From the IMG/VR virus record IMGVR_UViG_3300030090_004523, positions 1 through 23,759 of that record: DNA of 23,759 nucleotides, one strand, 5' to 3'. The DNA is from a virus. The notes beneath the pieces are model-generated. The model did no database searches. It was not told the origin of the DNA and saw only the letters and a program-made list of their open reading frames with translations. Below, in pieces: positions 7,723-23,636 of the stretch (the stretch's first letter is position 1; each line of letters opens with the position of its first letter). The position numbers and the translations under genes are program-made.

Positions 7723-8027
7723 TATAGCTCTCTTATATCTCTATCTATTATCTGATTTATTGTATCATCATCTTTTAATTGTTCCACAACAGTAGTGGCA
7801 AATAAAGTGGTTGTTTCATCATCATACAACTCCCCTGTGTAAGGATTTTCAAAAAGTTTTATAGTACCGCTTTCGTCTCTAGTAATTAAACTACCATCAT
7901 ATGCTGAACCCGATACCGATATCTTTGTCTTTAGCCTTTCTATTTGTGTTAAATACTGCTGTTCATCTTCATCGATAAGATTTTGATAAAATGTATTGTT
8001 TTTAAGTTCTTCTTTTGTGTATGGCAT
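7722..8027 (-). CDS. Small hypothetical protein of the tail operon (101 aa)
   Basis: A 101-residue acidic protein beginning MPYTKEELKNNTFYQNLIDE. The first half is helical and charged (DEDEQQYLTQIERLKTKI, about residues 19-36). A short loop with Gly/Ser follows, then LFENPYTGELYDDE and a helical C-terminus ending IIDRDIREL. It has no transmembrane segment, cysteine cluster or known catalytic motif. It sits between the ferredoxin gene and the giant tail gene, and its stop and start codons overlap both neighbours by one base (TAATG), so translation of the three is probably coupled. A chaperone or small baseplate component is possible from position only; I do not recognise the family. Confidence 0.7.
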   Translation of the reverse strand: MPYTKEELKNNTFYQNLIDEDEQQYLTQIERLKTKISVSGSAYDGSLITRDESGTIKLFENPYTGELYDDETTTLFATTVVEQLKDDDTINQIIDRDIREL

Positions 8028-8329
8028 TAATCCATCTCCCTACCGAAAAAATCATAATTTAGTTTTATGTACTTTTCCCACTCAGCCGGAACCTCTGATT
8101 CTTCATAAATTGCTTCTACTGGACATTCGGGTTCACAAGCAGCACAATCTATACATTCATCAGGATCAATGTAAAGTGAATCGGTTTCCTTTGGGATAAA
8201 ACCATCTGCTTTTGCCTCTTCACCTGAACCCTCTTTATCATAAGGCCCGTGAATACAATCTACTGGACAAACCTCAACACAAGCAGTATCGCAAGTTCCT
8301 ACACATGGTTCTACTATTATATATGGCAT
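8027..8329 (-). CDS. FdxA-type iron-sulfur ferredoxin (7Fe/8Fe class, 100 aa)
   Basis: This small electron-transfer protein has the cysteine layout of Azotobacter FdI/Thermus-type ferredoxins: C9, C17, C21-P, C25, then C59-x2-C62-x2-C65-x3-C69-P. By family knowledge C21, C59, C62 and C65 bind a 4Fe-4S cluster, and C9, C17 and C69 bind a 3Fe-4S cluster. Here an extra C13 lies between C9 and C17, where many 7Fe proteins have Lys or Val, so a second 4Fe-4S cluster is possible. Residues 27-52 form an acidic loop longer than in the shortest family members, and the C-terminus (VPAEWEKYIKLNYDFFG) matches the usual family tail. The gene lies inside the baseplate/tail operon, two bases after the preceding gene and overlapping the next by one base. 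Its role there is unknown: an auxiliary metabolic gene supplying electrons late in infection, or a virion-associated Fe-S protein. Confidence 0.92.
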   Translation of the reverse strand: MPYIIVEPCVGTCDTACVEVCPVDCIHGPYDKEGSGEEAKADGFIPKETDSLYIDPDECIDCAACEPECPVEAIYEESEVPAEWEKYIKLNYDFFGREMD

Positions 8330-19847: not shown

Positions 19848-21041
19848 TTATCTACCTACTTCTGATAGGTACATTTCTTTAGTTTCTTCCCAAGTCTTTC
19901 CTACGATATCTCCGTAGAAAAGTTTTTCAGGCTTCAATCTATTTTCGTCAAATAATTTACTGTATCTTCTGATAGCTTTAGGTTTCCACCAATTAATAAT
20001 GTAATCGCTATCATCACTATACTTTTTCTTCATCTTCAAATCTTTTTCTTCTATCTCTCCACGCAAAAACTCTCTACCATTTTCATATATGTCAGCGTAG
20101 AAGATACCTCTTTTAAATCCATGTTGGTAATCAGAACCCTTCACACCAACTGCTTTAAAAATCATATTAATTGTTTTTTGTTTCACACCTGTAGGAGGAC
20201 CGGCAACCCCTTCTTTTTGAGTAGTTTGTCTAAGGTACTCATCTTTTTGGTTTTCTTTCAACCACTGATGCCATACATCATAAGTGGAATCATCAGGCTT
20301 CAGTGCTATTCTACCTTTAGACTCACCAAGTGTTTTCCAAAGTGGAATACTGTTATACATTGAGTGTATGCCGTATAGGGATGTGGTTGATGCTCCTACT
20401 AAGGTCTGACCATAAGTCTCTTTCCAAGCATCTCTAACTACTGATGATGTTACGAAACAAGCCACCAACTTACCACCTAAGAAATTGAATCCCAATGGTT
20501 GAGCACAACATATCGTTGTACCTATGGAAGTATATTTAAGTTTACCATCTTTAAATTTATTTTCTTTTGTCCATCCAATATAGTTATCTCTGGCACCTAA
20601 TGAAGTAACATCTGAACCCATACAAACAATTCCTAATATTTTGCCAGTTACTTTATCTTTCAAATAAAACTTTAGGTTTCTGCCAGGGTTAGCAGTAAAC
20701 TCCATAGTGTGAATCAACCTACGAACTAATGTCCACTCTTCATTGTGTTTAGCATTACCTTGTTCTGTCATTTCTAAGTAAGGTTCTAATGCTTCGATTT
20801 CTTTTATGGTTTGTTCTTTATTATTTATATCAGTAGGTGTCCAAATAGACTTTTCTATCTTAGAGAACTGAGTTGCTTTCTGAGTCATAGAGTAAACATC
20901 AGCATTAAACTCTTGCCATTTCTTATATAGTGTTTGTTCTTGTACAGACATAGACTTTAGAAAGTCTAAGTTATCGATAAACTTCTTGCGTTCAGCTTCG
21001 AAGTCAAATTGTGGCTCGTCAAAAAAATTGTTAAAACCCAT
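19848..21041 (-). CDS. DUF4338 / DruA-like protein (397 aa)
   Basis: The central region matches my recollection of the DUF4338 family (DruA of the Druantia defence system). WTLVRRLIHTMEF is followed by LKFYLKDKVTGKILGIVCMG, LGARDNYIGW (R151-D152, G156-W157), FLGGKLVACFVTSSVVRDAWKETYG, and STTSLYGIHSMYNSIPLWKTLGESKG. Related proteins occur in marine T4-like phages; the fold may belong with GNAT/Mom-type acyltransferases, but that is my inference. The N-terminal 100 residues are helical (EAERKKFIDNLDFLKSMSVQ). An AGGA ribosome site precedes the ATG, and the gene follows the tRNA by 52 bases. In a phage this domain could modify DNA, scavenge a substrate or counter host defence. Two cysteines sit in TTICCAQPLG, but no clear catalytic triad is visible. 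Confidence 0.75.
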   Translation of the reverse strand: MGFNNFFDEPQFDFEAERKKFIDNLDFLKSMSVQEQTLYKKWQEFNADVYSMTQKATQFSKIEKSIWTPTDINNKEQTIKEIEALEPYLEMTEQGNAKHNEEWTLVRRLIHTMEFTANPGRNLKFYLKDKVTGKILGIVCMGSDVTSLGARDNYIGWTKENKFKDGKLKYTSIGTTICCAQPLGFNFLGGKLVACFVTSSVVRDAWKETYGQTLVGASTTSLYGIHSMYNSIPLWKTLGESKGRIALKPDDSTYDVWHQWLKENQKDEYLRQTTQKEGVAGPPTGVKQKTINMIFKAVGVKGSDYQHGFKRGIFYADIYENGREFLRGEIEEKDLKMKKKYSDDSDYIINWWKPKAIRRYSKLFDENRLKPEKLFYGDIVGKTWEETKEMYLSEVGR

Positions 21042-21899: not shown

Positions 21900-22412
21900 T
21901 TAGAAATCACCTGGCGCTACCTGAAATGTATTTAGTCCTAAATCTCTCCACATTTTGACAACTTTATCTCTGTCATCTACAACAAGAAATACATCATCAA
22001 TATCTACAAAAGCATCTAACATTTTTCTTTTCAAAATTTCATCAGGTGCGAATCTCCAATTTGAAACTGCGGGATTACCGGCAGCTACAGGAAAATCATC
22101 CTTCTGATATTTGTCTGGTCTCATAACCAATAAGTCGTAAGGTACATCATTCCACTCTAACCATTCTTTTGTCCTATCAAACATTCTATCATTTCTGCCT
22201 GAAAATATAACAATCTTAAATCCATCTTGTTTGAACAACTGAGCCATTTTTATTACTGGCTCATTTGGTTCATCGAATGCTATATGGGCTGGATTGAAAA
22301 ACTCATTCCAATTCATCTTACCATTTTTACCCATTTTGAGTGCATGGTCTCTTCGTCTATCTATGTTAGCCAGAGTACCATCTAAATCGAATATGACTGT
22401 ATTTTTGTCCAT
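21900..22412 (-). CDS. HAD-family polynucleotide 3'-phosphatase (PseT-like phosphatase domain alone, 170 aa)
   Basis: The HAD signature is complete: motif I FDLDGTLA (D9 nucleophile, D11), motif II IFSGRND (Ser in SGR), the lysine helix PDEILKRKML, and motif IV VVDDRDKVVKMWRDLG. The end QVAPGDF and the DDRxxVVxMWRxxG stretch are close to the C-terminal phosphatase domain of T4 Pnk/PseT, which removes 3'-phosphates and 2',3'-cyclic phosphates from broken RNA or DNA. The N-terminal 5'-kinase half of PseT is missing; a kinase and a ligase could be elsewhere. The ATG is preceded by AGGGA, 11 bases upstream. The neighbouring tRNA and tmRNA suggest a role in healing RNA cut by host anticodon nucleases, which is known for PseT; here it is inference. 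Confidence 0.9.
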   Translation of the reverse strand: MDKNTVIFDLDGTLANIDRRRDHALKMGKNGKMNWNEFFNPAHIAFDEPNEPVIKMAQLFKQDGFKIVIFSGRNDRMFDRTKEWLEWNDVPYDLLVMRPDKYQKDDFPVAAGNPAVSNWRFAPDEILKRKMLDAFVDIDDVFLVVDDRDKVVKMWRDLGLNTFQVAPGDF

Positions 22413-23210: not shown

Positions 23211-23227
23211 TTTTTTCCTAAAGGTTG

Positions 23228-23636
23228 TGGAGCTGAGGGGAGTCGAACCCCTGTCCAAGTAGTTTTCTTCAATAAGTCATTTACAGCTTAGCTGGTTTCC
23301 ATCGGTAGAAACCAGCAAACAACCATGTGGATTCCTTTTACTCAGAACATACCCTTTAACTGATATACTTTATACTCGCATATTAGAGTTGGTGTCTAAC
23401 TCATTTTATGACCGAGTGTTAGACAACTCAGTAACTTATGCAGCGTATGCGTAAGTTGGTTGGTCTTGATTATAAGCAACCATAGGTGAGTAATCATACT
23501 CAGCTAAATGCCAATCAATTACCAACCCGTCTAGCGATTCATCGCCAATTAGGTTAGTTGAGTTTTATTTAAGAGTCTACTCAAACTCTGCTGCACTTAA
23601 TTGTCAAATAACACCTGTCGAAACCATTACAGCCCC
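23228..23636 (-). ncRNA. ssrA: Transfer-messenger RNA (tmRNA)
   Basis: This rescues stalled ribosomes and tags incomplete proteins for degradation. The tRNA-like ends pair: 5' GGGGCTG with 3' CAGCTCC. The T-arm reads CAGGGGTTCGACTCCCCT, and a 5' GGTTTCGAC segment matches the usual tmRNA D-like region. Pseudoknot PK1 is visible at tmRNA nucleotides 48-79: AGAGT pairs ACTCT and TTGAGT pairs ACTCAA. That matches the E. coli placement (49-79). Twelve bases later the resume codon GGC (nucleotide 91) begins a 36-codon tag frame. A GCTGGTTTC/GAAACCAGC hairpin lies near the 3' end. The discriminator is A and CCA is not encoded. The RNA is about 409 nucleotides and begins roughly 10 bases after the likely start of its own promoter. 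Confidence 0.92.
23436..23546 (-). other. tmRNA proteolysis-tag reading frame (36 codons plus stop)
   Basis: The frame runs from GGC at tmRNA nucleotide 91 to TAA at 199-201. The tag starts GDESLDG, has DWHLAEYDYSP in the middle and ends PTYAYAA. The two bases TA at -5/-4 relative to the resume codon match the conserved UA of E. coli, and the distance from PK1 is as in E. coli. Ending in AA after an aromatic/Ala stretch fits protease-recognised tags. A shorter 13-residue tag starting at the in-frame GCT (AYNQDQPTYAYAA) lacks the -4 A. Confidence 0.75.

Follow-up and report, generated by a model that had tools for sequence, protein, structure and literature searches.

The locus examined here raises the question of whether a virus-encoded tmRNA resumes translation at the head of a reading frame of 36 codons, and what so long a tag would do. 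The window, that is, the whole stretch of 23,759 nucleotides that was analysed, belongs to a virus record of 26,692 bases (IMGVR_UViG_3300030090_004523). Comparison with relatives indicates that the locus is a real and conserved variant of tmRNA, with both its structure and its reading frame well supported.

The tmRNA gene and its genome setting

The first-pass annotation, made from the letters of the DNA, had proposed a phage-encoded tmRNA. This was borne out on the minus strand by ARAGORN and by the Rfam model RF00023, the kind of model search it had recommended, which matched the gene over the complete model (positions 1-374, 106 bits, E 8e-41; gathering score 47). The main parts of the gene are as follows.

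23225..23636, minus strand: one-piece tmRNA gene (ssrA), placed at 23227-23636 by ARAGORN and at 23225-23636 by Rfam RF00023
23559..23588, minus strand: PK1, stems GAGU/ACUC and UGAGU/ACUCA, possible in relatives with paired changes
23547..23551, minus strand: UAAUU, the frame-setting nucleotides, with A at -4, from the Rfam alignment
23439..23546, minus strand: tag reading frame of 36 codons, GDESLDGLVIDWHLAEYDYSPMVAYNQDQPTYAYAA, from the Rfam resume codon, the translation and the relatives
23436..23438, minus strand: tag stop codon TAA, from the translation
23386..23429, minus strand: PK2-like pseudoknot 3' of the stop codon, from the Rfam alignment, read by eye

The gene is collinear with the one-piece model in both ARAGORN and Rfam and not of the two-piece permuted form, and the presence of the 36-codon frame sets it apart from the TLD-only form of the DS6A type. 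The genes around it encode tailed-phage proteins, such as a baseplate wedge protein with 46% identity to that of Microcystis phage Mel-JY01. Compared with the related contigs G001 and G030, the baseplate and tail proteins of the window are 41-68% identical and the tag block is retained. A blastn search with the tmRNA gene of the window against 50,697 phage records gave no match.

Several other genes of the window were observed. A protein of 397 residues at 19848-21041 (minus strand) matches Druantia DruA (PF14236, E 3.9e-25) and has homologues in G001 (89%) and G030 (57%). A stand-alone polynucleotide kinase 3'-phosphatase domain is encoded at 21900-22412 (minus strand; PF25109, E 7e-29), and homologues with this domain lie near the tmRNA in some relatives, including L062 and L074. 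Among the baseplate and tail genes, a 4Fe-4S ferredoxin-like protein of 100 residues is encoded at 8027-8329 (minus strand; PF00037, E 1.9e-8).

The tRNA-like domain and PK1

A T-arm and an acceptor stem with G3-U70 were found in all 92 sequences examined (the window and 91 records), in a count that required at least 6 acceptor pairs and a paired T-arm, did not require G3-U70, and dropped three records with short flanks. The G3-U70 pair is the alanine signal of tRNA-like domains. The acceptor stem of 7 bp occurs in 10 types with covariation at pairs 4-6, and one type is mismatched at pair 5.

PK1 is in the expected place, as the first-pass annotation had noted, and ends 12 nt before the resume codon. 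Each of the 63 distinct upstream regions is able to form both of its stems (the script chose the best-pairing 3' arm), and bases on the two arms change together, for example from UGAGU/ACUCA to UGAAC/GUUCA. The spacing between PK1 and the resume codon is 10-13 nt in 49 of the 63; the other 14 are ambiguous, the script having taken a later match 3 nt away. In E. coli, this spacing is 12 according to the available text of PMC2481249.

Resume codon and length of the tag

The resume codon is assigned to GGC at 23544-23546, because Rfam aligns its consensus UAAuU-GCa with UAAUU-GGC, and the 36-residue tag claimed for the window is thus placed at GGC by Rfam and by the position of PK1 together. An A at -4 precedes the resume codon in 95 of 95 readable records, although the script itself required this A. 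The YAYAA end described earlier stands directly before the stop codon, and the final tag residues are small or hydrophobic as in other tags, with A as the last residue in 91 of 94 long-tag records.

The tag had also been described as longer than usual, and this stands: 36 residues is just above the range of 8-35 given in the accessible part of a review (PMC8012679), and relatives have 34-43 residues, with 49 in two that have lost the stop codon. The accessible part of a 2025 database paper (PMC11915505) gives 10 as the commonest tag length and mentions tags of 2.

A much later resume codon, which the first-pass annotation had named as speaking against its reading, was proposed only by ARAGORN and is contradicted by the relatives. 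In the window, ARAGORN placed the tag start at codon 16 (GAG), leaving 21 residues. Among the relatives its start shifts, giving tags of 11, 20, 21, 22 or 23 residues, while the frame from GGC persists. This start was rejected because it is inconsistent among relatives, because coding-type variation and in-frame insertions lie upstream of it, and because the relative L074 starts at GGC. In this family, all long-tag calls by ARAGORN that were examined put the start of the tag in the wrong place.

Survey of relatives

An exact search with an 18-base motif gave 13 contigs, of which L012 and L014 were dropped as chance matches; the remaining 11 carry the tag, 10 of them passing Rfam and one being truncated where its contig begins. 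With a degenerate GLVIDWHLA pattern, 55 viral contigs were found, each carrying the block within a long frame positioned as in a tmRNA (the contig of L056 is cut before the stop codon). Two tag-blind searches, whose patterns were drawn solely from the 5' domain, gave 59 and 83 contigs, 48 of them common to both and 94 in total. With the window and the contig L062 from a metagenome-assembled genome (MAG), the tag-blind set comprises 96 records, and since L159 ends before the tag, 95 are readable; the patterns confine this survey to relatives whose 5' domain is similar. Part of the records were run through Rfam, with passes for the 10 above, for 11 in a further run and for the records of L024 and L062. 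Rows L059-L061 were dropped as not tmRNA, tags of more than 45 residues were left out of the alignments, and L046 fell outside the regular expression of one block tabulation.

In the tag-blind set, a long tag was found in 94 of the 95 readable records, with 34-43 residues, or 49 in L028 and L047, and 67 of the tags are distinct. All 94 long tags contain LxGLx[IV]DW, preceded by S in 93 and by N in L046. Their layout is a conserved front, SLxGLx[IV]DW[HQ][LMF], a middle part that varies in length and sequence, and mostly a YAYA(A)-like end. The one remaining record, L074, has a short tag of 9 residues, GNTANFAYA, at the same resume codon GGC. L028 and L047 lack the stop codon of the tag (YAYAQVSELSNTRT), so that their frame runs to 49 codons; the near relative L032 retains the stop.

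A pattern from the 3' domain gave nine contigs: L074, the long tags L015, L040, L054, L179 and L183, and L180-L182, which are cut at the contig or locus end. The DNA of the short L074 tag as query matched only L074. Exact GLVIDWHLA had four matches in genome contigs, namely Pedobacter twice, Moraxella and the MAG contig L062; the two Pedobacter matches and the Moraxella match were rejected as long-tag tmRNAs, since ARAGORN found no tmRNA there. A gapped pattern search gave no match, and a motif search in G001 and G030 returned the tmRNAs themselves as sole matches.

Evidence for translation of the whole frame

In an alignment of 60 sequences, obtained partly from block-based searches, the lengths of all 12 distinct gap runs within the tag are divisible by 3, whereas in the 5' domain this holds for 1 of 9. 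In the distinct tags of the tag-blind set, mean diversity at third positions exceeds that at positions 1 and 2, both in codons 10-15 (0.33 versus 0.05, p 0.004) and in codons 5-15 (0.32 versus 0.07, p 0.0005), the p-values being only indicative because the sequences are related. One-codon in-frame insertions were observed in L024, L046 and L169, upstream of the starts called by ARAGORN. The entire 36-codon frame is predicted to be translated, because the indels keep the frame, third positions vary while residues stay constant, and L074 has the same start. At the level of sequence, the comparison establishes the tmRNA fold and the position of resumption; it also shows selection of the translation type where the tag is conserved, and indels that keep the frame in the rest of it.

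The conserved front block

23502..23546, minus strand: conserved N-terminal block of the tag, residues 1-15, GDESLDGLVIDWHLA, from the 67 distinct tag-blind tags

In the 67 distinct tags, L5, G7, L8, D11 and W12 are invariant, and residue 9 varies (V/E/D/N). Codons 10-15 retain I/V, D, W, H/Q, L/M/F and A (F in two distinct tags), and their third positions vary. Three codons of the block are themselves fixed or nearly so, namely TCG for S4 (66/67), GGG for G7 (67/67) and TTG for L8 (63/67); within their own amino acids these codons make up 3.7%, 2.7% and 14.5%, respectively, in G001. Because codons are fixed at helix positions, the block appears to be under both protein and RNA constraint, the resume hairpin and the in-frame helix, both described below, constraining codons 4 and 7-8 further at the RNA level.

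The tag had no match in Pfam, in PDB sequences or in the phage collection. From 61 tags, AlphaFold predicted no structure with confidence (pLDDT 62), which is what a free peptide would be expected to show. Along the block, hydrophobic residues recur at alternate positions (L8, I10, W12, L14), a spacing that might allow the block to join a partner protein as an additional strand.

RNA pairing within the tag frame

23533..23546, minus strand: hairpin containing the resume codon, from pairing in aligned relatives
23521..23527, minus strand: 5' arm of a predicted in-frame helix, GGUUGGU, from pairing in relatives
23454..23460, minus strand: 3' arm of the predicted in-frame helix, ACCAACU, with one compensatory pair, in L104

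A small hairpin, GCGA-UGAA-UCGC, had been reported to overlap the resume codon and had been called unusual. Its existence is confirmed; its unusualness is not, since a resume-codon helix is predicted in 23 of 29 tmRNAs of the presumed host phylum (28 called by ARAGORN plus L070 of TMED198), and the hairpin was rejected as a feature peculiar to the phage. All five pairs are present in 59 of 60 aligned sequences, and compensatory changes from C-G to U-A and from G-C to A-U were found in one sequence each. By predicted folding, the resume bases lie in a helix in every one of the 67 distinct long tags, and likewise in L074 by another sequence. This criterion, on which the count of 23 of 29 also rests, is weak, because 47% of shuffled sequences likewise have two resume bases in a helix, though at a mean energy of -3.3 as against -6.3 for the real sequences. 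Several tmRNAs of the TMED198 phylum (L126-L154) have a resume-codon hairpin of 4-6 bp with changed sequence, such as GCCGAUUACGGC and UGCCAAUUCUUUUGGCA, and the hairpin is possibly a lineage feature of tmRNA in that phylum. For the E. coli tmRNA, the loss of function of an A86C mutant has been proposed to reflect a helix around the resume codon (PMC2481249, available text), whereas in the phage tmRNA the A at -4 lies outside the five-pair helix.

The predicted in-frame helix, in which codons 7-9 pair with the P-T codons, is complete (7 of 7 pairs) in 31 of 60 sequences; 16 have six of the pairs and 13 have five. One double compensatory change was found, in L104. Pairing in an alternative register fits too.

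The presumed host and its tmRNA

One MAG, TMED198 (G002), contains both a short-tag bacterial tmRNA and, on a contig of 7.5 kb that shows synteny with these phages, a long-tag one, although binning into a MAG is weak host evidence. Among the proteins of G001, a relative of 165 kb, is one with a TonB-dependent receptor plug domain (PF07715) that is 66-68% identical, over nearly its full length, to its best matches in the TMED198 phylum. The ends YAYA and YAYAA of the phage tags resemble the ends VAYA and AYAA of TMED198-phylum tags (e.g., ADNFAYAA and ANSFGNVAYA). On the basis of the MAG contig, the identity of the TonB-plug protein and the similar tag ends, the host probably belongs to the TMED198 phylum. 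The G001 protein with the plug domain (G001:C1:123599-126337) and its counterpart in G030 (G030:C1:184538-187330) are 912-930 residues long and 63% identical to each other, and such a protein could alter the surface receptors of the infected cell.

Among 80 genomes of the TMED198 phylum, 77 have some RF00023 match, and in 56 it is above the cut-off. Of the 29 best-scoring loci, ARAGORN gave a call for 28, whose tags have 8-12 residues; L142 yielded none. These tags were sampled from the 30 best-scoring loci of the 80 genomes, so that an odd, low-scoring long-tag tmRNA could be missed, and the sampling is biased towards ordinary tmRNAs. A long tag borne by the host itself was rejected, since the block pattern occurred in 1 of 245 TMED198-phylum genomes and there only on the phage contig of the MAG; the tag, which had been suggested to be virus-specific, is so far found on phage contigs only. 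Because the C-terminal YAYA(A) resembles the tags of the TMED198 phylum, the comparison suggests that degradation by a host protease is retained and that the N-terminal block is the new part.

SmpB was not found in the record of the window, in 41 other phage contigs or in Microcystis phage Mel-JY01, a weak absence because the phage records are mostly fragments; SmpB would then have to be that of the host. SspB was not found in 12 contigs.

Comparison with known tmRNAs

With bacterial one-piece tmRNAs (RF00023; TMED198 phylum), the phage tmRNA shares the tRNA-like domain, PK1, the A before the resume codon and the stop codon, and with those of the TMED198 phylum also the YAYA-type end in some and the predicted resume-codon helix. 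It differs from the latter in its tag of 34-43 residues as against 8-12, in the front block, found only in the phage, and in the predicted in-frame helix. The bacterial tmRNA tag of Mesoplasma florum, a Lon tag of 27 residues, is also longer than usual, and is not known to have such a front block.

A tmRNA gene on a phage genome is likewise known from the mycobacteriophage Bxz1 group and Bacillus phage G (PMC4131195, accessible part). Marine phage-encoded tmRNAs have been described in Melnitz and in pelagimyophages; that of Melnitz is of the permuted two-piece form according to the available text of PMC9004378, whereas that of the window, also from a marine phage, is one-piece. Among the matches listed for tmRNA tags and phage tmRNAs, in a literature search covering few subscription papers, no title or abstract opening described such tags.

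Proposed mechanism and alternatives

We consider it fairly probable that the gene encodes a working, alanine-chargeable phage tmRNA that uses the SmpB of the host and adds a two-part tag, a host-type degron preceded by a specific binding module. The phage tmRNA would be charged with alanine, work with host SmpB and enter stalled ribosomes, where translation would resume at GGC and add Ala and 36 residues. The YAYA(A) end would serve as a degron of the host type, recognised by ClpXP or a similar protease; during infection, tagged chains would thus be destroyed and ribosomes freed. The front block SLxGLx[IV]DW[HQ][LMF] may be a short binding module for one specific partner, from host or phage, with the variable middle as a linker. 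More tentatively, trans-translation may serve as a delivery system, in which the phage module on every rescued chain binds a dedicated partner; if this is true, the fate of tagged proteins differs between infected and healthy cells.

The alternatives differ in what they make of the front block. Resumption further downstream, at GAG for 21 residues or for about 11, with the block as untranslated RNA, would agree with the ARAGORN calls of 21 residues in the window and 11-23 in relatives. It is very improbable, because the called start does not keep its position among relatives, codons 5-15 vary in a coding manner in the tag-blind set, the one-codon insertions upstream of the called starts keep the frame, L074 starts at GGC where Rfam aligns the resume codon, and PK1 lies from GGC at the distance given above, close to that of E. 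coli. If the block were instead retained for RNA structure only and the peptide merely carried a C-terminal degron, the near-fixed S4, G7 and L8 codons, far more frequent in these tags than in G001, would be explained, as would the resume hairpin and the in-frame helix; we regard this as unlikely, since codons 10-15 keep their residues while third positions vary, and residue 9 changes while D11 and W12 are constant in the 67 distinct tags.

By analogy with the Lon tag of Mesoplasma florum, the extra length might give a longer unstructured initiation region easing engagement by a host AAA+ protease, for which the lack of a confident AlphaFold fold and the middle part, variable in length and sequence, would speak; this too is doubtful, as a plain spacer should not hold invariant L, G, L, D and W. 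The gene might instead yield a decoy tmRNA that titrates SmpB or alanyl-tRNA synthetase and thereby inhibits trans-translation in the host. This would be compatible with the failure to find SmpB in 42 phage records, mostly fragments, and in Mel-JY01, and has a parallel in the TLD-only molecule of phage DS6A, which inhibits endogenous tmRNA in E. coli (PMC11915505, accessible part). A decoy would need neither reading frame, PK1 nor acceptor stem, yet all three are maintained, and this explanation is highly improbable.

On the reading of a working tmRNA with a two-part tag, this virus lineage keeps its tag under what appears to be strong protein-level selection, while the bacterial tags compared are short. 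The block offers a defined 15-residue peptide for pull-down, with L074 as a natural short-tag control.

A further long frame was observed in the huge phage LR756508 (L066, 1501-1947), which has an RF00023 match, the resume codon GGC and a 36-codon frame, GVNNADYES...KPAAV. A pattern search with this tag found no relative. A GCGU/ACGC hairpin was seen there by eye, and ARAGORN calls the tag GRRKPLSW instead.
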